A stretch of 59,382 nt of DNA from an uncultured Elusimicrobia bacterium (lineage in GTDB: Bacteria; Elusimicrobiota; Elusimicrobia; Elusimicrobiales; UBA9959). This document shows, in pieces, positions 9,476-59,157 of this stretch. The position numbers and the translations under genes were made by a program. Position 1 is the first letter of the stretch. Every line of letters starts with the position of its first letter. The notes beneath the pieces are model-generated. The model searched no databases. It had not been told where the DNA came from and saw only the letters and a program-made list of their open reading frames with translations. The stretch is taken from positions 1 to 59,382 of the forward strand of contig CAIRNJ010000108.1 of assembly GCA_903879915.1 (NCBI GenBank). Reading direction: 5' to 3'.

Positions 9476-9500
9476 AAACCTGAACCGCCGCCCCCGGCCG

Positions 9501-14041: not shown

Positions 14042-14068
14042 AACATCCTCCAGCTGTAAGACCTAAGA

Positions 14069-14992: not shown

Positions 14993-15093
14993 AGCCCCGC
15001 CTCTTACCACTTTCCCCGACGGCATAAAAGAAAACTTAACCTTCCCTGACACAGTCCCGCGGACGTTCAGGGCAAAGCTGCTTTTACAGTGAT

Positions 15094-15122
15094 GTTATAC
15101 CAGACGAAAGTTGACTTGTCAA
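15094..15122 (-). promoter_or_regulatory. Strong sigma70 promoter for the four-gene paralog block
   Basis: TTGACA (15117-15122), a 17-base spacer and TATAAC (15094-15099) on the minus strand. The spacer ends in TTTCGTCTGG, nearly the same as in the promoters at 16560 and 55597. The leader to the ATG at 14992 is about 95 bases. Confidence 0.85.
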
Positions 15123-15143
15123 GGGCCCCGGATCTTACCAAAA

Positions 15144-15182
15144 CAACCAAAAACAAGCCGCGCCGGGACTGCCGCGCATGGC
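15144..15182 (-). terminator. Weak intrinsic terminator after the gene ending at 15192
   Basis: On the minus strand GCC-AT-GCGC and GCGC-GGC can pair with a two-base bulge, followed by TTGTTTTTGG. It would separate the 426-residue protein gene from the downstream block. Confidence 0.4.
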
Positions 15183-15191
15183 GTTCCATAA

Positions 15192-16472
15192 TTACGGTGT
15201 GCCCGCCCCGGCCGGGCCATTTCCCGGGATGGAAAGATCGGGGCAAGGCCCGGTCGGCGTTACGCAGCTCCCGCTGCTGATAGGCGTTAACTCGCCTGAC
15301 CCGGCTGCGATCACAAAGGTCTGCTCATAATTAGCATAATGTTCCCCGCCCGGTTTATCGCCAAGCGTATACTCCCCTTTGAAGGTCGCCGTCCAGACAT
15401 CGCCCTGTTTCTGGTAAGTGATACTGTCGTCCTTGGCCATGAATTTGTAGCCGGCCGCGTCGGCGCAACAGGCCGTTTTACAGTAATAGCCGCTCTCTTC
15501 CGTCTTCTGCTTGATATCCGCGGGCGGTTCAGCCGGGGTGCCTTTGGGCTGTGAAGCGGCCGGGGTCCCGCCGCCGCCGGTGAGCGCTGCGGCGCCTTTA
15601 CTTGTCAGGCCGCTGGCCAAACCCTTGGAAACATCCGATGCGGCGTCTTTCTTATCTTCTTCCAGTTTAGGCGGGCTCGCTGCAGGAGCGTTGGCGGCCG
15701 CCGGATCCGTGGTCTTGAGATTGGTTATCTCCCCGCTTTTTATGGTATCCAGCCCCGCCAGGCCTTTGTTGCCGTAAGACAGCGCCCCGCCTGCGCCTCC
15801 ACTACCGCCGCCGCCGCTGCGGCCGGTAGTACCCACGCCGAAGCTCTTGTCCCATGAACTTTTAGCCGTCATGGCCGAACCGCTGCGCAAGCCGTTGTTA
15901 AGCATCGCCTGGGTGCCGCGGAGCGCGTTGAGCGTCCCCTTGCCGGACCCGGCGCCCAGCCCCCCGGACTGAGAGGCTGAGATCCTGGTATTTCCCCTGC
16001 TGGGGCCGCCTTCGAACCGCGAACCGCCGCCGGAAGACTGGCTGCCGCCGCCGGAGGGCATGCCGCCGCCGCCGCCCCCGCTCATTCTGGGCACGGACGA
16101 GGGAGCCCGGGCGGAAGCCGAACTCCTGGCGCCGCTATCGCGGGGGGACGCCGCACCCGCTCCCTCCGGGCTTTTGTTCATCCAGCCGGACATATCCAGA
16201 TTTTCGCTGGCCTGTTTGTCTAAAAACCGGGACAATCGCGCTTCATGCACTGTTTTAGGGGTTTTCTCATCGTCAGCCAGACCGAAATAACGGAAGAACG
16301 GGGCCATGCTCTGCCTCACCACGGAACCGTAATGGAAATTCGCATTTTTAGGCCCCGTAAGGTCATTGGAGCCCTGGATGATGAAAAAAAGGAATACGCC
16401 CCCGCCTATCAGCAGGAAAGCCAGCAGCGAGACTATTACTGTTCTTTTCTTGTCTTTCGAATCATCGGCCAT
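15192..16472 (-). CDS. Low-complexity membrane-anchored paralog with C-terminal Cys domain
   Basis: A 426-residue protein of unknown function. The start at 16472 (MADDSKDKKRTVIVS) has GGGGGACGT just upstream; the longer frame has none. One membrane helix lies at about residues 11-31, followed by a Gly/Ser-rich stretch with poly-Gly runs and a segment SAMTAKSSWDKSFGVGTTG that resembles the paralog AFSG motif. The last 90 residues form a more ordered region with cysteines (YYCKTACCADAAGYKF, SSGSCVTPTGPCPDL) and alternating beta-like hydrophobicity, probably outside the inner membrane. It has its own promoter. Confidence 0.72.
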   Translation of the reverse strand: MADDSKDKKRTVIVSLLAFLLIGGGVFLFFIIQGSNDLTGPKNANFHYGSVVRQSMAPFFRYFGLADDEKTPKTVHEARLSRFLDKQASENLDMSGWMNKSPEGAGAASPRDSGARSSASARAPSSVPRMSGGGGGGMPSGGGSQSSGGGSRFEGGPSRGNTRISASQSGGLGAGSGKGTLNALRGTQAMLNNGLRSGSAMTAKSSWDKSFGVGTTGRSGGGGSGGAGGALSYGNKGLAGLDTIKSGEITNLKTTDPAAANAPAASPPKLEEDKKDAASDVSKGLASGLTSKGAAALTGGGGTPAASQPKGTPAEPPADIKQKTEESGYYCKTACCADAAGYKFMAKDDSITYQKQGDVWTATFKGEYTLGDKPGGEHYANYEQTFVIAAGSGELTPISSGSCVTPTGPCPDLSIPGNGPAGAGTP

Positions 16473-16559
16473 ACGTCCCCCTGGCAACACGAAACTATGC
16501 CCGTTCTCCACCCTTCCCTTAATTCCGGGAAACTGGAAAAGCAGGTCACCTGTAACTAG

Positions 16560-31635: not shown

Positions 31636-34593
31636 ATGTACATGGACTCTAAGCGCAAAGCGGCGGATTTCGAAGTGGAATTCGGCGGTTTCGAGAAGCT
31701 GATGCCCCACAGGATCAAGAACGTCCTGATGGTGGCCTCGCTGTACGACTCCTTCCTGCTGGCGGACGACGACCGCCTCAACGAGGCGCTGTTCGGGGAA
31801 ATGCCCGACTCCGGCGCCCGCTCCGCGCCGAAAATAACCAGGGTGGCCACGGCCGAGCAGGCGTTCGACAGGCTGGCCGGCGGCGGCTACGACCTGGTGA
31901 TCGCCATGATACAGGTGGGCGAAACGGACATGCCCGACTTTTTCCGCAGCCTGAAGGCCGGCCGGCCCGACCTGCCGGTGGTGCTGCTTTCCTTCAATAT
32001 CCAGGACATCAAGAACATACCCGAGGAGGCCCGGGCGCTGGCCGACGGGGTTTACCTGTGGAACGGCGACACGCGCATTTTCTCGGCCATAATAAACCTT
32101 ATAGAGGACACCCGCAATTTCGGGCACGACGCCAAAGTGGGCGTGCAGGCCGTGCTGCTGGTGGAGGACAACATCAAGTTCTATTCCTCCTACCTGCCGG
32201 TGATCTACACGGAGCTCCTGAAGCAGACCCAGATAGTGATGGCCGAAGAGCTTAACCCGGTAAAGAAGAACCTGCGCCTGCGCGCGAGGCCCAAGGTGCT
32301 TTTCTGCAGCAACTACGACGAGGCGTGGGCCATCTACGAGCGGTACAAAGCCAACCTCCTGGGCGTGATCAGCGACATCGAGTACCCGCGCGGCAACGTG
32401 TGCGACCCCGAAGCGGGGCTGGAGCTGACGCGCCGGATAAAAGAGGAGAACCCGGACATGCCGGTGCTGCTGCAGTCCTCCAACTCCAAATTCGCGGCGG
32501 CCGCGGGCGCGCTGGGGGCGTCCTTCATGCACAAGGCCGCGCCCGACCTTTCCAAGCAGCTGCGCGCTTTCATCCTGCGCTATTTCGGCTTCGGCGACTT
32601 CGTGTTCTCCGACAAGAACGGCTTCGAGTTCGCCCGCGCCGCCGACATGAACACCATGCTCAAGCTCCTGAAGGTGGTGCCGCTGGATTCCATCCTGTAC
32701 CACGCCGGCCGCAACCACTTCTCCAAGTGGCTGTTCGCCCGCACGGAGTTCGAGACCGCCTACCACATCCGCCCGAAAAGGATCTCCGAATTCGGCAACC
32801 CCGAAGGCCTGCGCAAATACCTTATAGAGACGCTGCACCAGTTCATCTACAAAACGCAGCTGGGCACGGTGCTTAAGTTCGACCGGCGGCTTTTCGACAA
32901 CTCCACCCCGTTCGTGAAGATAGGCTCAGGCTCCATCGGGGGCAAGGCCAGGGGGCTCGCGTTCGTGGACTTCCTGCTCAGCAAGAGCGACATGGAGACG
33001 CGCTGGCCGGGCGTTGCCGTGACGGTGCCCAACACCATAGTGCTGGCCACCGACGTGTTCGATTTTTTCATGGAGCAGAACGGGCTGGACGCCATCCTGA
33101 ACGAAAATTATCCCGACGAGCGCGTGGCCGGCCTTTTCGAGAAGGCCCGCCTGCCGGATTACGTCAGCCGCGACCTGGAGACCGTGGTGAGCAAGCTGGA
33201 GGGCCCCCTGGCGGTGCGCTCCTCGTCGCTCCTGGAGGACTCCAAAACGCAGCCTTTCGCCGGGGTTTATAAAACGTACATGCTGCCCAACAACAGCCCC
33301 GACCCCGCGCGCCGGCTGGCCGAGCTGGAGCAGGCGATAAAATTCATCTACGCTTCCGTGTTCTCGCACGAAGCCCGGGCCTACCGCAAGCTAAACCCGC
33401 TGGTGATTGACGAAGAGAAGATGGCGGTGATCATACAGCGCGTGGTGGGGCGCCGCAACGCCTCGGGGCTGCACTACCCTGCTTTCTCGGGCGTGATGCA
33501 GTCGTATAATTACTACCCCGTGCCGCCGCTGGAGACGGAGGAGCCCATAGCCCACGTGGCCCTTGGGCTGGGCAAGATTATCGTGGAGGGCGCGGGCGCG
33601 CTGCGGTTCTCGCCGGCGCACCCGCACAACCTGCACCAGTTCTCCACCATCGGGGACTTCCTGGCCAATTCCCAGAAAAAATTCGTGGCGCTGGACCTGG
33701 CGGCCATTTCGTCGCCCCCGCGCTACGACGCCGAGCCCGCCCTGACCGAGGCCGGCATTACCGTGGCGGAGGAGGACGGCACGCTGGAGCTGGTGGGCTC
33801 CACTTATTCCCGGGAGAACGACCGCGTCTCCGACGGCATAGCCGAGCCCGGCACGCGCCTGGTCACTTTCGCGCCGATACTTAAAGGCGAGGCCCTGCCG
33901 CTGTCCCCCGTGCTGGAAGCGCTGGCCGCGCTGGGCAAGGAAGCCATGGGCTCGAATATCGAGATGGAATTCGCCTGCGATTACGACGTCCGCTCCGGCG
34001 AAGCCGCTTTCAACATCCTGCAGATGCGCCCCATGGTCTCGCGCAGCCAGGTAAAGAAAGTGACGCTCAAGGACATCAAGCCGGAGAACCTGCTGTGCCT
34101 GAGCGCCCAGGCGCTGGGCAACGGCGCGCACAAGGACATCTCCGACCTGGTCTACGTGATACCGGAAGCCTTCGACCCGATGAAGACCAGGGACATAGCC
34201 GCCGAGATAGGGGAGCTCAACGCCCGGCTGAGGAGCGAAGGGCGTTCCTACCTGGTGATAGGCCCCGGCCGCTGGGGGTCCAGCGACCCCCTGCTGGGCA
34301 TACCGGTGAAATGGAACCATATCTCGAACTCGCGGATAATAGTGGAGGCGGCCTACGGCGATTTCGTGGTGGACCCCTCGTACGGCACGCATTTTTTTCA
34401 TAACGTGACCTCCCTGGGCATAGGCTACTTCACCATCAACGTGACCGCGGCCGATTCCTTCATAAACTGGAGCCGCCTCAAGGCCATAAAACCCCTTGAG
34501 GAATTCTCCTACATCCGGCACCTGCGCTTCGAGCGGCCGCTGGATATAAGGGTGGACGGCTCGGACGGCCGGGGCGCCGTGGCTTTCGCCTGA
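31636..34593 (+). CDS. Two-receiver PEP/pyruvate-binding domain protein
   Basis: A 985-residue cytoplasmic protein. The N-terminus has two response-regulator-like domains. The first (about residues 24-150) is degenerate. The second (about 170-320) keeps the acidic pocket in VLLVEDN, the phospho-acceptor Asp in GVISDIEYPR and the Lys in FMHKAAP. The rest resembles the nucleotide-binding PEP/pyruvate-binding domain of PEP synthase/PPDK (GSIGGKARGLAF; LAVRSSSLLEDSKTQPFAGVY). The phosphohistidine swivel and PEP-utilising domains are absent, so it cannot run the full PEP synthase cycle. Similar proteins occur in Bacteroidota. TGGTAAAAT lies just before the start without any Shine-Dalgarno; the second ATG (31642) is the likely start if the mRNA is leaderless. 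Confidence 0.75.
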   Translation: MYMDSKRKAADFEVEFGGFEKLMPHRIKNVLMVASLYDSFLLADDDRLNEALFGEMPDSGARSAPKITRVATAEQAFDRLAGGGYDLVIAMIQVGETDMPDFFRSLKAGRPDLPVVLLSFNIQDIKNIPEEARALADGVYLWNGDTRIFSAIINLIEDTRNFGHDAKVGVQAVLLVEDNIKFYSSYLPVIYTELLKQTQIVMAEELNPVKKNLRLRARPKVLFCSNYDEAWAIYERYKANLLGVISDIEYPRGNVCDPEAGLELTRRIKEENPDMPVLLQSSNSKFAAAAGALGASFMHKAAPDLSKQLRAFILRYFGFGDFVFSDKNGFEFARAADMNTMLKLLKVVPLDSILYHAGRNHFSKWLFARTEFETAYHIRPKRISEFGNPEGLRKYLIETLHQFIYKTQLGTVLKFDRRLFDNSTPFVKIGSGSIGGKARGLAFVDFLLSKSDMETRWPGVAVTVPNTIVLATDVFDFFMEQNGLDAILNENYPDERVAGLFEKARLPDYVSRDLETVVSKLEGPLAVRSSSLLEDSKTQPFAGVYKTYMLPNNSPDPARRLAELEQAIKFIYASVFSHEARAYRKLNPLVIDEEKMAVIIQRVVGRRNASGLHYPAFSGVMQSYNYYPVPPLETEEPIAHVALGLGKIIVEGAGALRFSPAHPHNLHQFSTIGDFLANSQKKFVALDLAAISSPPRYDAEPALTEAGITVAEEDGTLELVGSTYSRENDRVSDGIAEPGTRLVTFAPILKGEALPLSPVLEALAALGKEAMGSNIEMEFACDYDVRSGEAAFNILQMRPMVSRSQVKKVTLKDIKPENLLCLSAQALGNGAHKDISDLVYVIPEAFDPMKTRDIAAEIGELNARLRSEGRSYLVIGPGRWGSSDPLLGIPVKWNHISNSRIIVEAAYGDFVVDPSYGTHFFHNVTSLGIGYFTINVTAADSFINWSRLKAIKPLEEFSYIRHLRFERPLDIRVDGSDGRGAVAFA

Positions 34594-46477: not shown

Positions 46478-46837
46478 ATGAGAATACTAGTCGCAGATGA
46501 CGAACCGCTTATAATAGACCTTTTGACCGAATACCTCGGCGCGGCGGGACACGAGGTCGCCTCGGCCTATGACGCCAAGTCCCTCATCGCCATGGTAGAG
46601 GCCGACCCCCCCGAGCTCGTTTTCTTCGATATAAACATGCCGGGCATCAAGGATTCTCTCTCGCCCAACATAATAATACCGCCGGCGCTGAAAAATATCC
46701 CGATCGTGGCGGTAACCGGCACCGACAGCGAAAAGCTGTACAAGATGGGCCTGCCGGCCGACATCCAGGTCCTGGCAAAACCGATCGATTTCGCCGAGGT
46801 GGACGCCATAATAGCCAAGATTACCGGCGCGGCCTGA
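46478..46837 (+). CDS. Stand-alone CheY-like receiver protein
   Basis: A 119-residue single-domain response regulator with no output domain. The acidic pocket (RILVADDEPL), phospho-acceptor Asp (VFFDINMPG), Thr (AVTGTDSE) and Lys (VLAKPIDF) are all present. The start at 46478 follows GGAGGGGGAGAAA closely; a start 15 bases earlier would put the ribosome site inside the gene. It converges on motB, with 12 bases between the stops. Its position next to stator genes suggests it could signal to that motor, but a partner kinase is not in the window. Confidence 0.9.
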   Translation: MRILVADDEPLIIDLLTEYLGAAGHEVASAYDAKSLIAMVEADPPELVFFDINMPGIKDSLSPNIIIPPALKNIPIVAVTGTDSEKLYKMGLPADIQVLAKPIDFAEVDAIIAKITGAA

Positions 46838-46849
46838 AGCCGGAGAAGG

Positions 46850-47503
46850 TCAGGGGCCGACGGGCGGCGCGGCGGCCGGCGCCTCCGGGTACGGGGTGCT
46901 CCTGATGAAAAAGACCACCCTGCGGTTCTTGCGGCGGTTCTCCTCGGTGTCGTTGGCCGCTACGGGATGGTATTCTCCGTAGCCTATGGCGGACATCCGC
47001 TTCGGGGAGAAGCCCGCTTCCAGAAAATATCTCACTACGCTGGTAGCCCTGGCGGTGGAAAGTTCCCAGTTGGTGGTGAACTGCTTGTTGGCGATGGGCA
47101 CGTTGTCGGTGTGCCCTTCCACTATAATATCGTTCTTGCGTGAAAGCGTTTTCAGCGCTCCGGCCAGCTTGTCCAGCTTCTGCTTCATGTCGCCGGTTAT
47201 GTCGGCGCGGCCGCTCTCGAAAAAAGCCAACTGCCCCTGTTCCTCGAGGGTGATGCGCATCCCCTCCTTGTCCATCATGACCTGGCCCTGCAGCTGCCCC
47301 TCTTTCATCAGCTGACGGATCGCCTGCTGGGCCTTCTGCATGTCCTTGTTGAGCGCCGCGGAAAGGGCGTAGAGGATGATAAAAAAACAGACCAGCTCCG
47401 TCATCAGGTCGGCGTAATTCACCAGCCACGGCGGGGCCGGGCGGCCGATCTGCGCCACCCTGGGGTCGTCCTCCGGGATCAGGTTCCTGACTCTTAAAGG
47501 CAT
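46850..47503 (-). CDS. motB: MotB-like stator subunit with OmpA-type peptidoglycan-binding domain
   Basis: A 217-residue protein. The start at 47503 is chosen because it opens the short cytoplasmic N-terminus of MotB; the longer frame runs back through motA. The single helix NYADLMTELVCFFIILYALSA carries the proton- or sodium-binding Asp (residue 32). The C-terminus has the OmpA/MotB signature (VEGHTDNVPIANKQFTTNWE, LSTARATSVVRYFLEAG, NRRKNRRVVFFI). It follows motA after 13 bases. It would anchor the stator to peptidoglycan and gate ion flow. Confidence 0.92.
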   Translation of the reverse strand: MPLRVRNLIPEDDPRVAQIGRPAPPWLVNYADLMTELVCFFIILYALSAALNKDMQKAQQAIRQLMKEGQLQGQVMMDKEGMRITLEEQGQLAFFESGRADITGDMKQKLDKLAGALKTLSRKNDIIVEGHTDNVPIANKQFTTNWELSTARATSVVRYFLEAGFSPKRMSAIGYGEYHPVAANDTEENRRKNRRVVFFIRSTPYPEAPAAAPPVGP

Positions 47504-47516
47504 AAAGGTACGCGGC

Positions 47517-48305
47517 CTAGGCCGGCCTGGGCTCTTTTTTAACGGTGGCGCGCTTGGAAGGGGCGAGATACGCTTTAAGATTGGCCTCCACCACGCTGGG
47601 CGTGGAGCCGCTCTGCAGCAGCAGCACGCCGCGGATGATGATCTCTTTGACGAAAAGTTCCTCTTCGGAGCGGTGCTTGAGCTTGCCGGCCATCGGCAGG
47701 AACAGCCAGTAGCCGGCGCCCATGCCGTAGAACGCGGCGGCAAGCGCCACGCCCATCAGCTTGGGCACCTGCGACACGTCCTCTATGGAGGACAGCATCA
47801 TGATCATGCCCAGCACGGTGCCGATGATGCCGAAAGCCGGCGCGTAGGTGCCCAGCGCGTTGAAGATCTCGCGGCCCACCTTATGGCGCTCGCGGATGAA
47901 ATCCAGCTCCGTCTCCAGCATGTTGCGGATGAACTCGTGGTCGGCGCCGTCGATGACCAGCTGCACGCCGCGCCGCAGGAAATCGTTGTCCACGGTCTTC
48001 ACGTCGGCCTCCAGCGCCAGGAAGCCTTCTTTTTTAGCCTTCATCGACAGCGACACGAAAGTAGAGACCAGCCGGGAGGTATCCTCTCCCTTCGTGGTGA
48101 GCACCTGCTTGAGCACGGTGCCTACTTTTATGACGGCGGAAAGCGGATAGTTGACCAGCAGCGCGCAGCAGGTGCCGCCCATCACGATAAGGAAAGCCTG
48201 CAGGTTTATGAACGGCTTGAACCCGGCCAGGCCCTGCCCCAGGTAAACGGCCAGGATCACGGACCCGAAAAAAACTATTATTCCGCTGAAAGTGGCGATA
48301 TCCAT
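47517..48305 (-). CDS. motA: MotA-like stator subunit
   Basis: A 262-residue protein with four membrane helices and a large cytoplasmic loop between helices 2 and 3. The conserved prolines lie in YAPAFGIIGTVLGMIMML and GYWLFLPMAGKL, and the charged loop expected to touch the rotor lies around ELDFIRERHKVGREIFNALG. It is 45 bases after flbD and 13 before motB, so the three form one operon. Combined with the FliF-FliG fusion downstream, it implies a rotary-type motor. Confidence 0.93.
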   Translation of the reverse strand: MDIATFSGIIVFFGSVILAVYLGQGLAGFKPFINLQAFLIVMGGTCCALLVNYPLSAVIKVGTVLKQVLTTKGEDTSRLVSTFVSLSMKAKKEGFLALEADVKTVDNDFLRRGVQLVIDGADHEFIRNMLETELDFIRERHKVGREIFNALGTYAPAFGIIGTVLGMIMMLSSIEDVSQVPKLMGVALAAAFYGMGAGYWLFLPMAGKLKHRSEEELFVKEIIIRGVLLLQSGSTPSVVEANLKAYLAPSKRATVKKEPRPA

Positions 48306-48350
48306 GGTTTTACCCTGAAGCCGGGCGGCGGCGGAGCTGGGGGGCCTGCG

Positions 48351-48590
48351 CTAGAAAGGCTTTTCTTCTTTTCTTTCGAAGCCCTCTATGGGGTTGACGC
48401 ACTTTCGCTCGGCATAGACCTGCTTTTTGTACTCTATGACCTTGGCCACCACCTCGTCCACCGGGTTCTTGACGATGAAGCGGTTGCCGGTGGCCAGGTT
48501 CAGCACGGTATCGGGGGTCGCCTCGATACTTTCGATTATATCGGCGTTGACCACGATCATGGTGCCGTTGAGCTTTTCTAGTTTTATCAT
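48351..48590 (-). CDS. flbD: FlbD-family flagellar-associated protein
   Basis: A 79-residue protein opening with MIKLEKLNGTMIVVNADIIE and continuing IEATPDTVLNLATGNRFIV and VDEVVAKVIEYKKQVY, which matches the small FlbD family found next to motAB in spirochetes and Firmicutes (not the Caulobacter sigma54 regulator of the same name). Its function is unknown, though it is always tied to motor genes. The start at 48590 is the family start; a longer frame to 48614 has no support. It is first in the flbD-motA-motB operon. Confidence 0.9.
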   Translation of the reverse strand: MIKLEKLNGTMIVVNADIIESIEATPDTVLNLATGNRFIVKNPVDEVVAKVIEYKKQVYAERKCVNPIEGFERKEEKPF

Positions 48591-48616
48591 CGGATCCGGC
48601 CCTGACTGACGCACAA

Positions 48617-48622
48617 ATTATA
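48617..48622 (-). promoter_or_regulatory. TATAAT -10 box of the flbD-motA-motB operon
   Basis: TATAAT on the minus strand, 27 bases before the flbD ATG, with no convincing -35 box. The coiled-coil gene ends just upstream in a GC-rich hairpin (CCCCGCC-GGCG-GGCGGGG), so the operon likely has its own start. Confidence 0.5.
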
Positions 48623-48669
48623 CTTAAAAACCTGCGGCTCCCCGCCCGCCGGCGGGGCCGGACGGCGGC

Positions 48670-50787
48670 TCAGGCCTTTTTTTTCAGCGCCCATTTAAGC
48701 CTGTCGCCCAGCGAACCCTCCATGGCCGTGTAAGCTTCCAGCTTCGCGGTGAGCTCGGCGATGACGGCGGCGTTCCTGGACTGCTGCTCTTTGGCGGCCG
48801 CCTCCTGCGTGGCGTAGCCCGCGCGCTCAGATTCGAAAGCGTCGGCCGTCTCCTTCTCCCTGAATTCCATCTGCTGGATCTTCTGCTTCAGGAAAAGCAT
48901 CTCGGATTCGAAGCGGACGCGGTTCTCGCTCTCGGTCTTGAAATTGGCGGTGAGCCTGGCCAGGTCGCTTTCGAGGGCGGCGTTGCGGGCGCCCAGCGCG
49001 GCCATTTTCTCGCGCAGGGCCGCCTGCTCGCCGAAAACTTCGCTGGCGTGCTTCTCGGCCTGGTTCTTCTGCGCGGAAAGCGCCTCGGCCGAGCCCTGCA
49101 GCCGCTGCCGCTCGGCCTCGAGCGCCGAAGCGCGTTCGGCGGATTCCCGCTGCAGAGCGGCGTACTTGGCGCCGAACTCCCGCTGCTGCGCCTCAAATTT
49201 CCCGTCCATGTCCTTCTGCTGGAAAGCGAGCCTGCGGTTCTCCAGCTCTAGGCCCGAGCGGGTCCCTTCCGCGGCCATCAGCGCCACGCGCAGCTCTTTA
49301 AGCTGGCGGTTGTAATCGTCGTCGAGCTGGCGCCTGACGGAGATCTTTCCTTCTTCGGCCGCGGCGTCGTATTTAGCGCGCAGCTGGAAAACTTTATTGT
49401 CCAGGTCGGCCTGGTTCTGGGCCGACAGCTTGGACAGCTCGGCCTGATGCACGGCGGCGATCCGGGACAGCTCTTCCCGGTGGGCCTGGGTCAGCTCCGC
49501 GCCGTATTCGTTCTTGACCCTTTCTATCTCGGCCTGCGCGGCCGCTTTGGCGCTCTCCGCCTCATGCCGGTAGCGCTTCAGGTCCTCCATCTGGGCGGCC
49601 ATGGTCTGGGCCAGCTGCATCTTCTCGAGGCGCAGCTGCCCGCGCTCCTTATCCATGGCGGCGTTGACGGCCTGCACCCTGGAGACGAAGCCTTTCACCT
49701 TGAGCAGTTCCGAAATGGCGCGCATCTTCTCCCCCGCCAGGTCGGCCAGCGTCCTGTCCTTGTCCTGCATCTCGGCCTGGAAGCGCTCCTGCGCCTTCTG
49801 GATCTCCGCGTTCTTCTCTTCGTTCTTGCGGTCGGAGATAGTGCCCAGCTCGGCCTGCAGCCGGCCCATCTCTTTCTGCATGGCGTCCTCGCGGTGCTTG
49901 ATCTCGTCCTGCAGCTTTTCCTCGCGGTGCTTGTATTCCTCTTTTACCTTGTCCTCGCGCATGCGCAAGAGCGAGCACTCGGCCTTGGCCTCGGCGATCT
50001 CCCGCTCCTTCTCCGGCATCATCTTGATGTAGTTCTCCACCGCGGCCCGTTCCCTGTCGGCGCGCGCGAGGTCGTCGCGGAGCTTCGAAATTTCTTTTTC
50101 CGCCATGGCCTTGTCCATGCTCACTTCGCGGAATTCGTCCTTGAGTTCGTTCATGCGCTCGGCCGCGGACTTCAGCGAGCGTATGGCCTCTTCCCGCTCC
50201 GACAGCGCCTTCTGCCACTGGCCCTTCTCGTCCAGCCACCGGCGCTCCATCTCCTGCAGGCGGTAGACGAAATGGCCTTCCACGTCGCGCCCCTGGGTCT
50301 CGCGCTCGGCCAGCTGGTTCTTGAGCGTGGCCATCCAGGTCTCGCGCTCCTGCGCCAGGCGGGACTCGAGCTCCTTTATCTTTCCTTTAAGCGAGATCCT
50401 CTCTTCCTCCACCTGGCTGTCGCGCCTGTCGCGGCGCATTTTCTCCTGGATATCCTTGAGCGAGGACTCCACCTTGGAGGAGAGCGCCTCGTCCTGCTGG
50501 CTCTTGAGCGCGGCCACCAGCGCTTTTTCCTTCTCCTGGGCTACTATCTTCTCCATCTCGGCTATCTTTTTTTCGAGCTTTTCTTTTTCCTCGTTCATCC
50601 GGGCCGTCTCGGCGGCGGCGGGATCGGAGAACGCGCCCTGGGCCTGCGCGGGCATGGGAGGCAGCGGGAAAGGCAGAGGCTGCCCCGCCGCGGGAAGCTG
50701 CGGGGGCTGCGGCAGGTGCGGCTTGGCCATTCCCGGGGGGAAGGGCGGCAGGCCGTGAGCGTATTTTTTTTGTTCTCTGTCTTCCAT
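48670..50787 (-). CDS. Long coiled-coil protein with Pro-rich N-terminus
   Basis: A 705-residue protein of unknown function. The first 55 residues are Pro-rich (LPPFPPGMAKPHLPQPPQLP), a possible docking segment. The remainder to about residue 690 is an almost unbroken run of Glu, Lys, Arg, Gln, Ala and Leu with heptad spacing, i.e. a very long coiled coil, without an ATPase head, signal peptide or membrane helix. It lies between flbD-motA-motB and the FliF-FliG fusion with its own promoter. A cytoplasmic scaffold or filament for the motor is a reasonable inference; it is not an SMC protein. Confidence 0.75.
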   Translation of the reverse strand: MEDREQKKYAHGLPPFPPGMAKPHLPQPPQLPAAGQPLPFPLPPMPAQAQGAFSDPAAAETARMNEEKEKLEKKIAEMEKIVAQEKEKALVAALKSQQDEALSSKVESSLKDIQEKMRRDRRDSQVEEERISLKGKIKELESRLAQERETWMATLKNQLAERETQGRDVEGHFVYRLQEMERRWLDEKGQWQKALSEREEAIRSLKSAAERMNELKDEFREVSMDKAMAEKEISKLRDDLARADRERAAVENYIKMMPEKEREIAEAKAECSLLRMREDKVKEEYKHREEKLQDEIKHREDAMQKEMGRLQAELGTISDRKNEEKNAEIQKAQERFQAEMQDKDRTLADLAGEKMRAISELLKVKGFVSRVQAVNAAMDKERGQLRLEKMQLAQTMAAQMEDLKRYRHEAESAKAAAQAEIERVKNEYGAELTQAHREELSRIAAVHQAELSKLSAQNQADLDNKVFQLRAKYDAAAEEGKISVRRQLDDDYNRQLKELRVALMAAEGTRSGLELENRRLAFQQKDMDGKFEAQQREFGAKYAALQRESAERASALEAERQRLQGSAEALSAQKNQAEKHASEVFGEQAALREKMAALGARNAALESDLARLTANFKTESENRVRFESEMLFLKQKIQQMEFREKETADAFESERAGYATQEAAAKEQQSRNAAVIAELTAKLEAYTAMEGSLGDRLKWALKKKA

Positions 50788-50806
50788 ATATTTTTTCCGC
50801 TTCCTG

Positions 50807-50834
50807 GTTATATTTTAGACAAGGCGGATTTCAA
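50807..50834 (-). promoter_or_regulatory. Sigma70 promoter of the coiled-coil gene
   Basis: TTGAAA (50829-50834), a 16-base spacer containing TTGTCT, and TATAAC (50807-50812) on the minus strand. The leader is about 15 bases. Confidence 0.7.
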
Positions 50835-50929
50835 TTAAGTTGAAAAATTGTTAACAAACCAATTCCCGTCCCCGCTCCCCGGCCGCCGGTCCCCTATTCC
50901 CGATCACCGATCCTTGATCGCGATCTCTT

Positions 50930-52765
50930 TTATCTGCCCACCCTCTGCCTGAACCCGGCCAGCCATTCGCCCGCGGCCGGGTCTCCGGAAAGAACGGCGT
51001 AGCGCTCATAGGCCGCCACGGCCTCGTCGACGCGCTGCAGCGCGTAATACGCCCCGCCCAGGTACTGCCAGACGCCCGCGTCCCTGGGGTCCAGCGCCGA
51101 GGCGTACTCCAGGTACTGCAGGCTCTCCTGCACTCTGCCCTGGTTGAAGAATTCCACCCCCGCCGAGAAATATTCGGCGGCGGCCGGCGCGGGAGCGGGC
51201 TCCCCGGCGGCGCTCTCTTTGCTCCCGCGCTGTTCGCCGGGAAAGAGTTCCTCGCCGTCTATGAGGCAGATCTCGCGCGTGGGCCGGCGCGGCGTTATCC
51301 TGCCCTCGTCCTCCAGGCGTTTCACCGCGCCGAGTATTTTCATCCGCGCCTCTTCCGCCTGCTGCTGGGACACGTCCCCCTGGTAATCCATTATTTCCCT
51401 GACAACTTCCACCGCGCCCTGCGACATATTGCCGAAAAATTTCTGCTGCAGCGCGGGAGCGGCCTTATAGACCACCCGGGCTATATCCTCATTGCTTACG
51501 CTCCGGATCACGGTCTGCATGTCCTTGTCGCTGAACTCCAGCAGGTCCTCGAACACCAGTATCGCCTTCCTTACCTTCTCATAGATCTCCGGCTTCTGGG
51601 TCTTAAGATAATCCAGGATATTTTTCCTTATGGCCACGTCCGTCTCTTCCAGCATCTTGGTAAGGCGCTCGATGCCGCCGGTCACGAAATCCACGTTCTC
51701 TTTTATTTCCTTATCTATGGCCTCTATCTGCGCGCGCGTGGCCTGGCGCACGGCCAGGGATTCCAGCGCCACCTTGGCCTGCACCTCGGCCGACAGCATG
51801 GTCAGCGCCTGTCCCGCCAGGTCGGGCCTGATATAGTTCAGCACCAGCGCTATGACCCAGGGGTCCTCTTTTTTCAGCAGGAAGTAATAGATCAGCCTTT
51901 TAAGATTCTCTTCCGTCAGGTAAGCGAAGGGTTTAGCCTGTTTCATGTCTTCCTCCTCCCCCTCCTGCTCCGGGCCCAGGCCCGGCAGCTGGCGCCCTTC
52001 AGCAGCGCCCGCGCCTTCCGCCGCTCTCCGGCCGGCGGCGCCGGTGCCGGCAAGCATAGCCTGCGCGTATTTCCTGAAAAAATCCCGCAGCGGCCCGAAA
52101 AGGAACGCCAGCAGCAGCAGGAAAAGCGCGGCGTACACCAGCGGCAGATAAACGCCGGGGCGCCGCATGTCTTCAAGGACGCTGCCGCCCTTGAACCTGG
52201 TGGGCTTGAAGATAACTACGGGAGCGGCGGTGCCGCGGACCTTGTACTGGAGCAGGAACCCGTCGAGGCGCTCGCGGGCCAGCTTAAGGCTCTCCGGAGA
52301 CAGCCGGTCGTCGTGCAGCACGGTAAGCTGGAAGCGGGTGATCTCGGTGCCCAGGCCGTAGCGGACCTCCCTGACCCCCCTGCCCTGCTGGGCCTGGTGG
52401 CCGAGGGAGGCGCCGGGGCGCGCGCCGCCCTTTCCCCCGTCAGGGCGGGGGCTGGCGATGTCCGCCATAAGAAAGTCGGCCTCTTCCGCGGAAACGGAGC
52501 CTTTTCCCTTGTAATCCCGCACCACGCCCAGCCCCTCTTTGGTCTGCCAGGCGTTCTTGGAGATAAGCTCCATCTCGATATCGGCGAAGACGAAGGACCT
52601 GGCCGGCCCCAGTATGGGGTCCAGGATCTCGGTCTTTATCTTCGTTTCCATCTCCCGGCGCGTGGAATCCTGCTTCTCCATGACGGAGGCGTCCATGCCG
52701 TCGGCGGCGGACGCCGCCGGGCAGGCGGCCAGGGCCAGCAGAAAAGCGAAACAGAGCTTTCTCAT
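50930..52765 (-). CDS. FliF-like/FliG/TPR fusion protein (non-canonical motor rotor)
   Basis: A 611-residue protein with a signal peptide (about residues 1-20). A periplasmic domain (about 30-195) resembles the C-terminal part of FliF (KTEILDPILGPARSFVFADIE; EITRFQLTVLHDDRLSPESL). One membrane helix (205-223) is followed by an Ala/Glu linker. FliG middle and C-terminal domains span about 285-490 (KKEDPWVIALVLNYIRPDLAGQ, ILVFEDLLEFSDKDMQ, KFFGNMSQGAVEVVRE, AEEARMKILGAVKRLEDEGRI). A C-terminal TPR pair lies at about 530-600. In flagella FliF and FliG are separate. It starts on an AT-rich leader without a ribosome site, just after the small RNA gene. By eye several FliG torque residues are changed. 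Confidence 0.82.
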   Translation of the reverse strand: MRKLCFAFLLALAACPAASAADGMDASVMEKQDSTRREMETKIKTEILDPILGPARSFVFADIEMELISKNAWQTKEGLGVVRDYKGKGSVSAEEADFLMADIASPRPDGGKGGARPGASLGHQAQQGRGVREVRYGLGTEITRFQLTVLHDDRLSPESLKLARERLDGFLLQYKVRGTAAPVVIFKPTRFKGGSVLEDMRRPGVYLPLVYAALFLLLLAFLFGPLRDFFRKYAQAMLAGTGAAGRRAAEGAGAAEGRQLPGLGPEQEGEEEDMKQAKPFAYLTEENLKRLIYYFLLKKEDPWVIALVLNYIRPDLAGQALTMLSAEVQAKVALESLAVRQATRAQIEAIDKEIKENVDFVTGGIERLTKMLEETDVAIRKNILDYLKTQKPEIYEKVRKAILVFEDLLEFSDKDMQTVIRSVSNEDIARVVYKAAPALQQKFFGNMSQGAVEVVREIMDYQGDVSQQQAEEARMKILGAVKRLEDEGRITPRRPTREICLIDGEELFPGEQRGSKESAAGEPAPAPAAAEYFSAGVEFFNQGRVQESLQYLEYASALDPRDAGVWQYLGGAYYALQRVDEAVAAYERYAVLSGDPAAGEWLAGFRQRVGR

Positions 52766-54247: not shown

Positions 54248-55498
54248 TCAGGGGCACCCGGGGGCGCCGGCCATCAGGCACATCCCAGCGGCGTTATCGG
54301 TGCAGCCCATCAGATTGCCTTCCGAATCAAAAACGACCTGCGTACCGTTCGGGTCCCCGTAGCTGATATAACCGAACTCGTCTACGACCGGCTCAAGCAG
54401 CGGCTGATCCTCCGCTTTTCCGTTCTTGCCGGTGCCGGTGAGAGAAAGACGGTCATCCTCGCCCGTATCCGTGTCTTCCGTCTCCGGGCTGAGGCTGCTG
54501 CTGCCGAACATCGGGCCCATCATGCCGGACAGCATGCTGGCGGCGGAATCGTCCTTCTCGGCCTTGTCCTTCTCGGCCGCCGCCGCGGTGGCCTCTTTGT
54601 CCAGCCCCGGGTTGGAAACCTTCGACGTCGTAAGCGTCTTGGCCCCGGCCGCGCTGATGTCCTGGTCGCGCAGGAACTGCGGTATCGAGTTCGGGTTCAC
54701 CACGTCCAGCTTGGAGCGCATGTTCTCTTCGTACTGTATGGTGGTTTCGGCCTCGGGAGTAGCGTCGAAAGACCTGGAGATCCAGTTCTTGGCCGAATCG
54801 GCCGAGGCTATGCGCGCGCCGTAGATGGAGGCGCGGAAAGCCCCCTTGAGCGATTCCAGCACGCCGCCCCCGCCGCCTCTTTTGGGCGCCGCGGCCCTGA
54901 CGCCGCTCTGCTGCGCGGAAACCGCGGCCACCGCGCCGTTTTCCTGGAAAGCCACGGCCCCGCCCTGCCCGGTAGTTTTAGAGGTATTCCCTCCGGAACC
55001 CTTGCCTGAGAAAGAACTCACGGCCTGAAGTTTTGCGGACATCTCGCCGTCCCCGCCGCCCCTCCTCGCGCCTTTCCCCGCTGCGGCGGCGCCGTCCCCG
55101 GTGTCCTCTTCCGCCGCCGCTACCGCCTGCCCGCCCTGCTCTCCAGCGGCGGCCTGTCCGCGGTCTTTGTCTATCAAAGGCTTCATGGCAGGCATTCTGT
55201 CCGCGCCCGACTCGTCCCGCTTGCCGGAGAGCGGCTCCTCTTCCGTATCAAAAAAACCGTCGTGTTTGGGCACGGAAGCTTTGCCTTCGTAAATAGCGCT
55301 GTTGGCGGAAAGCTGGTTATAGCTGTCCCCTCCGGCGAGCTTATGTGCCGACTGGCGCATGGCGGTCACCGCGTAATACCCGCCGGCCAGCAGGAACAGG
55401 AACAGGCAGGCGAAAGGCAGCCACCAGTAGCTCTTGCTCCCCGTTCCTTTCAGCAGGGAGAAGAAGCCTATCCCGGTATCGTTTTCATCTTCGCTCAT
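54248..55498 (-). CDS. Low-complexity membrane-anchored protein, remote family member
   Basis: A 416-residue protein of unknown function. The start at 55498 (MSEDENDTGIGFF) follows GGGGAGGC; the longer frame overlaps the promoter. One membrane helix at about residues 24-46 (WLPFACLFLFLLAGGYYAV) is followed by an Ala/Gly/Glu-rich linker and a segment LESLKGAFRASIYGARIASAD. A more ordered C-terminal half follows (PEAETTIQYEENMRSKLDVV, FGYISYGDPNGTQVVFDSEG). It shares its layout and promoter type with the cluster at 5.7-16.5 kb, 40 kb away, and lies next to pilus-like genes, suggesting a common machine. Confidence 0.65.
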   Translation of the reverse strand: MSEDENDTGIGFFSLLKGTGSKSYWWLPFACLFLFLLAGGYYAVTAMRQSAHKLAGGDSYNQLSANSAIYEGKASVPKHDGFFDTEEEPLSGKRDESGADRMPAMKPLIDKDRGQAAAGEQGGQAVAAAEEDTGDGAAAAGKGARRGGGDGEMSAKLQAVSSFSGKGSGGNTSKTTGQGGAVAFQENGAVAAVSAQQSGVRAAAPKRGGGGGVLESLKGAFRASIYGARIASADSAKNWISRSFDATPEAETTIQYEENMRSKLDVVNPNSIPQFLRDQDISAAGAKTLTTSKVSNPGLDKEATAAAAEKDKAEKDDSAASMLSGMMGPMFGSSSLSPETEDTDTGEDDRLSLTGTGKNGKAEDQPLLEPVVDEFGYISYGDPNGTQVVFDSEGNLMGCTDNAAGMCLMAGAPGCP

Positions 55499-55596
55499 AA
55501 AGCCTCCCCGCTTTTCACCCGAACAAAAAACAAAATTTGGTCCGGGAACTGGCTTCTGCCATCCCCGCGGCCAATAACGCTTCAAGCGCCGGTAAT

Positions 55597-55625
55597 GTTA
55601 TAGCAGACAAAACCCGTTTTTTCAA
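55597..55625 (-). promoter_or_regulatory. Promoter of the 416-residue low-complexity protein
   Basis: TTGAAA (55620-55625), a 17-base spacer ending TTTTGTCTGC, and TATAAC (55597-55602) on the minus strand, nearly identical from the spacer end to the base after the -10 with the promoter at 15094. Confidence 0.85.
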
Positions 55626-55637
55626 GGCCGGACCGGC

Positions 55638-57260
55638 TCAGTTCTTCAGCAGCAGGCGCGGCGGTTTGCCGTATTCGGAGAAGATGGCGGCTATTTCGTC
55701 GAAATCCAGCTCTTCCCGCTTCAGCAGTTCGTCGGCGAAGCGCTCCACTATCTTCCAGTTCGCGGAAAGAAGTTTCTCCACCTCCGCCAGCTGCTCCCGC
55801 ATCAGTTCCTGGGTCTCCCTCTCGAGCATGTCGGTTATCACGGCCGAGCGCTCGGATTTCCTGACGGAAGAATAATTGCCGATAAAGCCGCTCTTGCCCA
55901 TGCCCATGGCCCACACCATCCGGTGCGCGGTGCCGGTGGCGGAGACGAAATCAGAGCCCACCCCGGAGGAGGTGACGCCGTACTTTATTTTTTCCGCGGC
56001 GTAGCCGCCCAGAGAGGCGCGCAGCCAGCCCATATAGCTGTCGCGGTCGGGCACGTGCAGCTCCTCCGTCGGCATATGATGCACCACGCCCAGCGCGCCG
56101 CCGCGGTGCAGGATGGAAGCCTTAAAAACGTCGTCGGTGGGATGCGACAGGTAGATGGTGACCAGGTGGCCGGCCTCGTGGCAGGCTATGCGCTCGCGCT
56201 CCCGCGGCGTCATGCTGAGGCGGTGGGCCACGCCAAGCTCGATGCGCTCTATCGCGGCGCTGATGTCCTTGTAGGTGACCTGCGCCGCGGAGTTGCGCAC
56301 GGCTATCAGCGCGGCCTCCTTGACCACGTTCTCTATGTCGGCAGGGGAACTGCCCACGGCCTTCCGGGCGAGCCTGCCCAGGTCCATGCTTTTGTCGAAG
56401 CTCACCTTGTTCAGATAATAGGCGAAAAGCTTCTCGCGCTCAGCGAGATTGGGCCGGTCCACGAAGATCTTGCGGTCGAAGCGGCCCGGGCGCAGCAGGG
56501 CCTCGTCCAGGATGCCCTCCAGCGCGTTGGTGGCCGCGAAAACTATGATATTGGCGTCGCTGCCGGAAAGGCCGTCCATCTCCACCAGCAGCTGGTTCTG
56601 CGTGCTGTTGGTCTCGGAGCCGCCGCCGAACGCGTCGAACAGGATGCGGCGCCGCCCGATCACCTCGACCTCGTCGATAAAAATGATGCAGGCGCCGTGG
56701 ACCTGCGCGTATTCCCGGGCCTGCTTGAACAGCTTGCGCACGCGGCTCGCGCCCACGCCCACGAAAACCTCCACGAACTCGGAGCCGGAAACGGACAGGA
56801 ACGGCACGCCGGCCTCGGTGGCCACGGCCTTGGCCATCAGGGTCTTGCCGCAGCCCGGCGGCCCCACCAGCAGCGCGCCTTTCAGGATCTTGCCGCCTAT
56901 GGCCTTCACCCGGGTGCGGTCCTTGATGAGCTGCACCACCTCCCAGGCCTCGCGCTTGGCTTCTTCCAGGCCTATGATATCGGAAAACCGTATATTGACC
57001 GCGCTCGCGTCCACCCTGGTCTTTTTCAGCGCGCTGAAGCCGCCCATCTGCATCAGGTACAGGAACCCCACGAAGATCACCGTGTTGAGCACCATCCACG
57101 GCATGCTGGCCACGTTCATGCTGATGATATAGCGCCGGGTGTTCTCCTCTATGCCGGCCAGGTACCAGACGGGGAAGACCACGGCCACCAGCACCACCGC
57201 GGTTATGGTCAGCGGCAGCCAGTACTTGCCCAGGAATATTTTAAGTTTAAGCCAGAACAT
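55638..57260 (-). CDS. FtsH-like membrane AAA+ zinc protease
   Basis: A 540-residue protein. Two membrane helices near the N-terminus (about 13-32 and 52-70) enclose only about 20 residues, far shorter than the usual FtsH periplasmic domain. Walker A is GPPGCGKT, Walker B IIFIDEVEV, the arginine finger region RPGRFDRK, and the zinc site HEAGHL with a later Asp (GSDFVSAT) is intact, so proteolysis is expected. It starts 4 bases after the TadE-like gene, with translational coupling and no separate ribosome site. A housekeeping FtsH would normally be elsewhere, so this copy may be dedicated to quality control or processing for the pilus-like system. Confidence 0.88.
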   Translation of the reverse strand: MFWLKLKIFLGKYWLPLTITAVVLVAVVFPVWYLAGIEENTRRYIISMNVASMPWMVLNTVIFVGFLYLMQMGGFSALKKTRVDASAVNIRFSDIIGLEEAKREAWEVVQLIKDRTRVKAIGGKILKGALLVGPPGCGKTLMAKAVATEAGVPFLSVSGSEFVEVFVGVGASRVRKLFKQAREYAQVHGACIIFIDEVEVIGRRRILFDAFGGGSETNSTQNQLLVEMDGLSGSDANIIVFAATNALEGILDEALLRPGRFDRKIFVDRPNLAEREKLFAYYLNKVSFDKSMDLGRLARKAVGSSPADIENVVKEAALIAVRNSAAQVTYKDISAAIERIELGVAHRLSMTPRERERIACHEAGHLVTIYLSHPTDDVFKASILHRGGALGVVHHMPTEELHVPDRDSYMGWLRASLGGYAAEKIKYGVTSSGVGSDFVSATGTAHRMVWAMGMGKSGFIGNYSSVRKSERSAVITDMLERETQELMREQLAEVEKLLSANWKIVERFADELLKREELDFDEIAAIFSEYGKPPRLLLKN

Positions 57261-57264
57261 AGGA

Positions 57265-57882
57265 TCAGTCTTTTATGCCCGGCAGCACGAACTGTATGGG
57301 CCGGTCGCGGCTGGGCACGTACTTGATGACCTCCAGCGATTTGCCGCCCCCGTTCTGGTGATTGCCGGGCTCCACGCACATGAAATCGTAGCCGTTCATG
57401 CAGTCCTGCCCGTAAGGATAGGCGCAGACGGCCTGCTTCGGATACCTGCACAGCAGTTTTATGTTCTTGGGGCTGGTATACACCCGGAGGGTTATCACGT
57501 TCCAGACCTGCGTGCGCTGCACCTCCAGCTTCATGCTCTGCAGGTTCAGGAACTTGGCCACCGAAGGATTGTCGAAGCCGATATAGCCCCGCACCTTGTC
57601 CTCTATGTCCTTCTGCAGCCGGTCGTCGGGGTAGTCCCCGGCGTTCAGGTGCGATTCCAGCTGCCAGCGGCGGGCGGCGTAGAACGAGGCGATCTCCAGC
57701 TTCTGCACCAGCACCAGCAGCGCGAAGATCTTGGCGGTGATGAAGACTATGACCAGGAAAACGGGAAAAAGCAGCACCACCTCGGTCATGGCCTGCCCCG
57801 GGCGCCCGTCGCGCAGCGCAGCCGCGCCGCGCGCCAGCCGCCGCGAAATAGTTCTGAACGCCGCTGTGATAGTTATCATCAT
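57265..57882 (-). CDS. TadE-like pseudopilin
   Basis: A 205-residue protein. A basic N-terminus is followed by GQAMTEVVLLFPVFLVIVF (about residues 29-47), matching the TadE-like prepilin pattern in which processing occurs before the Gln/Ala-x-x-Glu and the hydrophobic stretch. The mature domain of about 155 residues has four cysteines (LLCRYPKQAVCAYPYGQDC, FMCVEPG). TadE/TadF proteins help assemble or initiate Flp-type pili. It is 75 bases after the TadG-like gene and coupled to the FtsH-like gene. Confidence 0.78.
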   Translation of the reverse strand: MMITITAAFRTISRRLARGAAALRDGRPGQAMTEVVLLFPVFLVIVFITAKIFALLVLVQKLEIASFYAARRWQLESHLNAGDYPDDRLQKDIEDKVRGYIGFDNPSVAKFLNLQSMKLEVQRTQVWNVITLRVYTSPKNIKLLCRYPKQAVCAYPYGQDCMNGYDFMCVEPGNHQNGGGKSLEVIKYVPSRDRPIQFVLPGIKD

Positions 57883-57957
57883 GTCGCTATCCGCTTTCCC
57901 GACAAGACAGTCTCGCTGCGCTCGCCCCCCGACCCTCGATTCTCGATTCTTGATCCC

Positions 57958-59157
57958 CTACGGGTAAAGCCTCGTCTGATATTTCGGCGTGGGGTTCGGC
58001 CAGACGCAGTTATTGCTGGCCGAGGTAAGCTGTGGGCACTGCGTGGCTATGCGCGAATGAACGCAGGGCCGCCCCACCTCCTTGCAGGCCGCGATATCGT
58101 TGAACTTGACGTTGAAATAGTTGCTGGGCGCGTTCCAGCCCTGGTAGACCTGCAGGCCTTTGCCCAGCTTATCCAGAAAACTGTCCGACACGGTAGCCAG
58201 CTGGAACAGGCCGTGGGGATCGGACCCCAGCGTCATATCCATCGCCGGATTGCTTTTGCCCAAGTAGTAAGGCGAAGGCCAGCCGCCGGTATAGACCTTG
58301 GCGTGAAACTCTATGTGCTTGATGTAATGCATCATGAAGTCGCCGCCGGGCGCCTTCCTGAGCTTCGCCATCATGAAACCGCCGTTGCTCCTGAGGCCGT
58401 CCTCGCCGCAGGCCCCGGGGTTGTTGACGCATTCCTGCGTGCCGGCGTTAAGGTAGTAGGATTTCCTAAAAAAGTTAAAGGTGTCGGTCAGGCGGTCGAA
58501 GACGGTCCACTGCGACTCCTCCACGGAGCCCAGCAGGCTGTAGACCTGGGCGTAGAACATGTAGATGCCCGACGCCACCGGCCAGGGCAGTTTTATCGAG
58601 CCGCCCTGCGCCGAAGTCGTCAGGTCGAACATTTCTATGTCCGCGTTGGAGGTGGGGTTCGTCTTTACCGGGTCGCGCACCGTATTGTTGCCCCAGGGGT
58701 TGGTGGGGTTGTTGCTGTTGTTGGTGAATTCTATGCGCCAGATGGACTTCTCATCCAGGAGCTGCGGGTCAACGCCGGCGGAATTGTCCTCGATATCCTT
58801 GGGGAAAGCGCCGGCGTCGTAAAGGATGTCGTACTCGCAGATCTCGCCGGAATCGTCGTCATAGCCGTACTTGTCGCCGGGCGGGCAGGAATACCTTTCC
58901 CGGAAGATCCTGTGGGGGAACGGGCCGTTCACATAGGCCGTGCGGTTGAGCAGGTTCGTATAGTCGCCCATTTGTATGAACGAGGCCGAGTCCACCGCGA
59001 ACTGCTGCCGTATCTTTTCGCGGGAGATCTTGGTGGTCTCGAACAGCAGGTAGACGAAGATCAGCAGGGAAGGGATGACGAACAGCGAGGGCAGGAGTAT
59101 CTGGCCGCGGCGCAGCACGAAAGCCAAGGAGAAAAAACGTGGATTCGAGCGTTTCAT
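57958..59157 (-). CDS. TadG-like pilus-associated membrane protein
   Basis: A 399-residue protein. Basic residues and RRGQILLPSLFVIPSLLIFVY (about residues 16-36) form a prepilin-like or anchor segment with the same RGQ feature as its neighbours. The following KISREKIRQQFAVDSASFIQ is the helix typical of Tad-locus TadE/TadG proteins. The large mature part is Tyr/Asn/Pro-rich with several cysteines and no von Willebrand motif that I can see. It sits between a small prepilin and the TadE-like gene. The function, minor pilin or assembly scaffold, is inferred from context. Confidence 0.65.
   Translation of the reverse strand: MKRSNPRFFSLAFVLRRGQILLPSLFVIPSLLIFVYLLFETTKISREKIRQQFAVDSASFIQMGDYTNLLNRTAYVNGPFPHRIFRERYSCPPGDKYGYDDDSGEICEYDILYDAGAFPKDIEDNSAGVDPQLLDEKSIWRIEFTNNSNNPTNPWGNNTVRDPVKTNPTSNADIEMFDLTTSAQGGSIKLPWPVASGIYMFYAQVYSLLGSVEESQWTVFDRLTDTFNFFRKSYYLNAGTQECVNNPGACGEDGLRSNGGFMMAKLRKAPGGDFMMHYIKHIEFHAKVYTGGWPSPYYLGKSNPAMDMTLGSDPHGLFQLATVSDSFLDKLGKGLQVYQGWNAPSNYFNVKFNDIAACKEVGRPCVHSRIATQCPQLTSASNNCVWPNPTPKYQTRLYP

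Follow-up and report, generated by a model that had tools for sequence, protein, structure and literature searches.

A natural fusion of FliF to FliG has been described in chlamydiae: a protein of ~330 amino acids (aa) that keeps an RBM2-like region, carries a FliG middle region, has no SpoIIIAG-like domain (RBM3), and is accompanied by FliL and FlhA (PMC4768692). MotA with a torque-generating domain has been tied to flagella in a survey of stators (PMC12505986), a survey of flagellar loss left filament-less rotor proteins unexplained (PMC12199754), and a paper on a related phylum stated that Elusimicrobia lack flagellar genes (PMC7031533). Among surface systems, the type IX system is placed by a recent review within the Fibrobacteres-Bacteroidetes-Chlorobi group (PMC11205867), and the Bacteroidota carrier SprF attaches to a moving track (PMC12635249). 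Here we analyze an operon encoding a one-chain FliF-FliG fusion, the stator proteins MotA and MotB, FlbD and a coiled-coil protein, which lies in a 59,382-nucleotide stretch of DNA (hereafter, the window) from an uncultured Elusimicrobia bacterium (contig CAIRNJ010000108.1 of assembly GCA_903879915.1). We could not find a description of FliF-FliG/MotAB motors from Elusimicrobiota in open-access papers; preprints and most subscription papers were outside this scope, so an earlier description is possible. We propose, with moderate confidence, that the operon encodes an ion-driven rotary motor that works independently of a flagellum and is coupled to a type IX-like surface system, where it probably moves adhesins.

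Motor genes without a flagellum

The window corresponds to contig C108 of an Elusimicrobiota genome (G000) of 3.37 Mb that is 99% complete. The operon is intact and is transcribed from the minus strand in the order FliF-FliG fusion, coiled-coil protein, FlbD, MotA, MotB; a receiver gene on the plus strand is convergent with it.

50930..52765, minus strand: fusion of FliF (RBM3/collar), transmembrane helix, FliG (middle and C-terminal domains) and TPR, the putative rotor, 611 aa (Pfam, PDB, AlphaFold2, dN/dS)
48670..50787, minus strand: coiled-coil protein, 705 aa, no evident signal peptide (conserved downstream of the fusion; dN/dS)
48351..48590, minus strand: FlbD, 79 aa (PF06289, E 1.5e-24)
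47517..48305, minus strand: MotA, 262 aa (Pfam, NCBIfam, PDB, dN/dS)
46850..47500, minus strand: MotB, 216 aa, with channel Asp (YADLMT), plug and OmpA-type peptidoglycan-binding domain (Pfam, PDB); start set by comparison with sister locus L122
46478..46837, plus strand: single-domain response-regulator receiver (PF00072, E 4.7e-15)

The initial annotation, made from the letters of the window, had named all of these parts at this place, and Pfam matches agree with it for each of them except the 705-aa coiled-coil protein, which matches no known family. It had also noted that the window holds no rod, C-ring FliM/FliN or export genes. This absence holds for the whole of G000, where profile searches found no FlhA (in a search that recovered its positive controls), no FliM/FliN C-terminal domain and no Flg_bb_rod (rod/hook) domain; flagellin was not searched separately.

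In order to see how this composition is distributed in the phylum, we surveyed 150 Elusimicrobiota genomes, G000 included, by profile searches, one family at a time. FliG_C is present in 48 genomes, FlhA and FliM/FliN in one each (both G032), and Flg_bb_rod in two (G032 and G100). In the remaining 47 genomes with FliG, FlhA and FliM/FliN are both absent, and most FliG domains sit within frames of ~480-700 aa, the size expected of fusions. The exception, G032, is genuinely flagellated: one of its contigs encodes a normal, free FliG of 355 aa along with flagellar export genes. Its complete-looking flagellar cluster (L081, C2:108000-127800) represents a single sampled lineage. A normal flagellar gene set elsewhere in the genome, with the window gene a decayed duplicate, had been named as what would overturn the initial annotation; G000 has no such set, and a real one was found in G032 only. 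The identity of the parts and the absence of a flagellum are nearly certain.

The nearest relative of the operon is the sister locus L122, from a Lake Pavin assembly, where it is 94.5% identical and collinear. This collinearity, together with 80 loci in public genomes (the best 80 of 115 matches, nearly all titled Elusimicrobiota), rules out an oddity of one genome or an assembly artefact; the near relatives carry the titles Elusimicrobia, Elusimicrobiota or Endomicrobia. A homolog of the coiled-coil protein is encoded downstream of the fusion in all 57 testable loci with this motor (type-1 loci), and the FlbD gene adjoins MotA in 59 of 59 MotA-bearing loci. Whether the receiver belongs to the motor operon is uncertain: it is present in L122, yet it is no constant part of type-1 loci.

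Anatomy of rotor and stator

The fusion begins with a signal peptide, which is followed by the FliF RBM3 ring domain, one membrane helix, the FliG middle and C-terminal domains, and TPR.

52199..52699, minus strand: FliF RBM3 with collar loop, aa 23-189 (AlphaFold2 domain model, Foldseek, VIA-align)
52049..52159, minus strand: long helix with a single transmembrane segment, aa 203-239 (AlphaFold2 secondary structure and hydrophobic stretch in the alignment)
51290..51934, minus strand: FliG middle and C-terminal domains, aa 278-492 (PDB sequence match 3ajc/1lkv; VIA-align)
50933..51190, minus strand: C-terminal TPR domain, aa 526-611 (Pfam TPR; AlphaFold2 pLDDT, the model's confidence score, about 90 or more)

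Pfam recognizes FliG_C (E 3.8e-27) and FliG_M (E 6e-9) in the 611-aa protein, which also matches FliG sequences of the PDB with E 3e-31. The FliG part superposes on the C-ring FliG of 8wiw (VIA-align Z 17.7, 221 residues, root-mean-square deviation (rmsd) 7.2 Å), and its C-domain fits 1qc7 to 0.8 Å over 89 residues. Structure prediction of the fusion, proposed as a check in the initial annotation, gave FliF RBM3, FliG and TPR folds. The N-terminal part had there been called FliF-like. AlphaFold2 folds aa 23-189 as helix-strand-strand-helix-strand, with a long loop joining the two strands; pLDDT is high in the core and low in the collar loop. When this domain was modelled alone, the top 18 Foldseek rows were all FliF (best E 4e-7), and VIA-align scored it at Z 10.1-11.8 against FliF RBM3/S-ring structures (rmsd 2.6-4.3 Å, 106-132 residues), as opposed to 8.9 or less against the other rows. 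The FliF fold is thus confirmed and its extent narrowed to RBM3 and the collar: RBM1 and RBM2 (the injectisome SctJ-like part) are absent, as aa 23-189, the sole region on the signal-peptide side of the membrane, make up one RBM. The FliG N-domain is missing as well. Judging from this topology, the RBM would be periplasmic and the FliG and TPR domains cytoplasmic, like in the flagellum. Fusion frames of 944-1244 aa were seen in loci L078, L079, L166, L169 and L185, where PorV or other domains are possibly fused to the rotor or overlap with it.

MotA is matched by Pfam MotA_ExbB (E 1.6e-27) and by NCBIfam MotP/MotA models (up to E 3.5e-72); it aligns over nearly its full length with solved flagellar stators in the PDB (E 3.4e-51), and the cytoplasmic domain is present. 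MotB has Pfam matches to the plug (1.3e-11) and OmpA (1.4e-22) domains and aligns with PDB MotB across its membrane and periplasmic parts, with the channel Asp kept. At the rotor interface, MotA retains basic and acidic residues at the R90/E98 positions, and the acidic E457 of the FliG torque helix is invariant in 59 of 59 sequences. The FliM-binding EHPQ motif reads E-D-P-W in the window fusion, and its histidine is found in none of 59 relatives. Retention of E457 and of the MotA interface charges, together with loss of the EHPQ histidine, is the pattern to be expected if a stator still pushes the rotor but FliM is lacking. We consider torque generation likely.

Conservation and co-evolution

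Ratios of nonsynonymous to synonymous substitution rates (dN/dS) against L122 are 0.18 for the fusion, 0.15 for the coiled-coil protein, 0.09 for MotA and 0.05 for MotB, which indicates purifying selection. Three FliF-FliG fusions are encoded in G000, the window copy included. A second operon, on contig C60, encodes a PorV-like protein, a receiver, a histidine kinase, MotA, fusion, coiled-coil protein and MotB, and many relatives have 2-5 FliG_C genes. Motors that share one genome are far apart in sequence comparison, and the MotA of each motor type is mostly nearest to the same type elsewhere, not to other motors of its own genome. The trees of the fusion and the neighboring MotA agree (Mantel r 0.864, 0 of 2000 permutations). 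A decayed flagellar duplicate is excluded by dN/dS, paralogy and this rotor-stator co-evolution. The suggestion of a stator-driven device other than a flagellum, made in the initial annotation, gains support from the genome-wide absences, the recurrence in the phylum, co-evolution and purifying selection.

Other motor types differ in their gene content. Type-3 motors (L077, L083, L085, L088, L091 and similar loci) encode a single MotA and, after it, two distinct MotB proteins and a TPR-containing protein of ~290 aa. In L074, L075, L082, L086 and L095, histidine kinases, receivers and PorP/SprF-like barrels surround the fusion, which suggests sensory control.

Outer-membrane neighbors

Directly upstream of the fusion and on the same strand, 67 of 71 testable type-1 loci encode a barrel of the PorV/PorQ family. 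Most of these barrels have a TPR tail, and most gaps to the fusion are under 300 bases. NF033709 is matched by 40 of the 41 barrels scanned, and six also match the PorP/SprF model; none reaches the equivalog cut-offs for PorV itself. As G000 carries about 21 PorV/PorQ-type genes in 3.37 Mb (~1 per 160 kb), adjacency to the motor by chance would be expected at about one per cent. Further upstream, 36 of 56 testable loci encode a giant protein whose C-terminal domain is of the sorting type, and 9 of 15 giants match the type IX secretion (T9SS) type A sorting domain. In loci of the Endomicrobia type (L039-L044, L240-L247), the fusion is followed by two giant coiled-coil genes and no MotAB was found nearby; several of these loci have further PorV modules downstream.

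The SprA/Sov translocon is present in 131 of 150 genomes, including G000 and all 48 FliG genomes. The SprA of G000 is full-length (C91:30028-35238; L237 8026-13530), and the phylum's SprA family matches the solved SprA structure 6h3i with E 5e-33. Pfam SprA_N detects the translocon in 29 genomes, whereas a phylum-specific profile detects it in 131. SprA is missing mainly from the small-genome members of one family. The GldL and GldM models had no match over cut-off in the 150 genomes, although divergent members could escape such models. Additionally, contig C62 of G000 encodes an fn3 protein of 766 aa in which the type IX signal CHU_C is matched over cut-off. It is adjoined by a 664-aa PorV-type protein and a receiver gene (L236:1-5832); in relatives, a histidine kinase and a FliF-FliG fusion come after this type of PorV, at the point where the contig end cuts the G000 locus.

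Proposed mechanism

We suggest that MotA and MotB would act as a flagellar-type stator anchored to the peptidoglycan, and that the RBM3 domain of the fusion would assemble into a minimal, S-ring-like rotor, with the stator pushing on its FliG domains. The FliM/FliN ring, the switch and the export gate would be dispensable, since FliF and FliG form a single chain that no longer has the FliM-binding motif. In the cytoplasm, the TPR domain and the coiled-coil protein probably organize the rotor. On the outer side, the ring might turn or drag a partner that reaches the outer membrane, with the periplasmic collar passing the motion on. In nearly all relatives this partner would be the PorV/PorQ-family barrel encoded upstream, presumably carrying a type IX-type surface protein that is exported via SprA. 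The likely output would be surface adhesins that are moved, or delivered with energy, i.e. gliding or surface-protein transport. Coupling of the motor to this outer-membrane module seems somewhat more probable than its absence, and gliding as the output is put forward tentatively. Gliding, pilus dynamics and envelope transport had been listed as candidate tasks by the initial annotation; gliding and envelope transport now have a specific partner in the PorV/PorQ barrel and surface protein, whereas a link to Tad pili is not supported.

Alternative explanations

Several observations weigh against a motor coupled to a surface system. The torque-helix charges are partly unlike those of E. coli, as the R281 position is Gly in 55 of 59 sequences. 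Ten of the 57 testable type-1 loci, most of them Endomicrobia-like, have no MotA/MotB within ~7 kb or in the extended flanks examined. SprA occurs without FliG in about 83 of the sampled genomes, so that secretion itself is not motor-dependent. Finally, the window locus and L122 have no adjoining PorV and giant genes; their place is taken by genes for two proteases, one S41 and one FtsH-like AAA, and for TadE-like proteins. A type-1 PorV was not found elsewhere in G000. A 2071-aa gene beside a PorV paralog on contig C61 was considered as the missing giant and rejected, as it is no clear relative and the PorV next to it belongs to the type-2 motor. The window motor is a derived case that has lost the linked PorV and giant gene.

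The motor could instead energize type IX-like secretion, replacing GldL/GldM and powering the export of proteins with C-terminal sorting domains via SprA, with no role in movement. PorV-family carriers and sorting-domain cargo genes within motor operons, SprA in every FliG-bearing genome and the silence of the GldL/GldM models would all fit this explanation. However, SprA is near-universal in the phylum, far beyond the genomes with FliG, and the known-family models that missed most of the divergent SprA could equally have overlooked GldLM; we regard it as unlikely. The occurrence of SprA without FliG makes the motor look like an optional addition to the translocon, and this would favor movement over secretion as its task. 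It is also rather improbable that the operon drives or senses some other envelope process, such as Tad pilus dynamics, work on the peptidoglycan or the outer membrane, or the sensing of surfaces via linked histidine kinases. TadE-like, FtsH-like and S41 protease genes do adjoin the window copy, and histidine kinases and receivers lie beside some motor types, but what the relatives conserve is PorV, the coiled coil and MotAB, not the Tad neighborhood. The initial annotation had connected the motor to Tad-like pilus genes and suggested a synteny search. That search found the fusion with MotAB conserved and TadE-like neighbors limited, among the loci compared, to the window and L122; relatives keep the PorV/PorQ barrel and the sorting-domain surface protein, and we therefore reject the Tad pilus as partner and take the link to be incidental.

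Two further explanations deny that a working motor is encoded at all. The fusion and MotAB might form a static complex, e.g. a polar organizer or an ion channel, and the lack of direct evidence for rotation and the only partly conserved torque-helix charges would be compatible with this non-rotary scaffold. Purifying selection on both components, their tight co-evolution and the conservation of the MotB channel Asp and FlbD make it very improbable. That the operon is the decaying remnant of a lost flagellum would agree with the flagellar ancestry of its parts, but dN/dS of 0.05-0.18, genomes with several paralogous operons each, the same fusion architecture across the phylum and rotor-stator co-evolution leave this explanation with hardly any probability.

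Other genes of the window

The FtsH-like AAA/M41 protease (540 aa) is encoded between TadE-like and unknown secreted proteins at 54248-59157, and is also found in L122. Seven consecutive minus-strand genes at 4705-16511 (299-1130 aa) match no Pfam family over cut-off and probably form an envelope-related cluster. A 985-aa protein at 31636-34593 combines a response-regulator receiver with a pyruvate phosphate dikinase ATP-binding domain.

Comparison with known systems

Every part of the motor comes from a known family, and it is the assembly and its setting that are new. With the flagellar motor it shares flagellar-type MotA and MotB, FlbD, the FliF RBM3 fold and the FliG middle and C-terminal domains. 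It differs in having FliF and FliG in one chain, in the loss of RBM1, RBM2 and the FliG N-domain, in the absence of FliM/FliN, export gate and rod, and in the addition of TPR and a coiled-coil partner. The chlamydial protein likewise joins a shortened FliF naturally to FliG, and the bacterium that has it is not considered flagellated (Bergeron 2016, PMC4768692). Unlike that protein, the fusion described here has RBM3 alone together with the FliG middle and C-terminal domains, and is encoded beside MotAB without FlhA.

The type IX and gliding machinery of Bacteroidota (GldLM, SprA, PorV, SprF, SprB) has in common with the Elusimicrobiota system SprA, PorV/PorQ-family barrels (some of them matching PorP/SprF), giant surface proteins with sorting domains and, if our reading holds, an ion-driven motor. 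Here, however, the motor would consist of MotAB and a FliF-FliG rotor, and GldL/GldM were not detected by family models. In Flavobacterium, sprB and sprF form an operon that pairs a surface protein with its outer-membrane carrier, and the Elusimicrobiota operons of surface protein and carrier may be regarded as resembling it. The Myxococcus Agl-Glt gliding motor has different outer-membrane partners, and no FliF or FliG rotor is known from it. In that system too a MotAB-like stator serves surface movement (PMC13104615).

The presence of SprA in Elusimicrobiota places this translocon outside the Fibrobacteres-Bacteroidetes-Chlorobi group. With this anatomy one can test which parts are required for a rotary motor (one RBM ring, the FliG middle and C-terminal domains, MotAB and FlbD) and which are dispensable (switch ring, export gate and rod), with type IX-like surface proteins as the candidate load. 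The chances seem to us even that Elusimicrobiota possess an undescribed class of machine, in which a filament-less FliF-FliG/MotAB rotary motor drives a type IX-like outer-membrane system of PorV-family carriers and giants, with several co-inherited motor types per cell. If this is true, the flagellar and the type IX/gliding worlds would meet in one machine, and rotary gliding or surface-protein transport would have been solved by evolution a second time.

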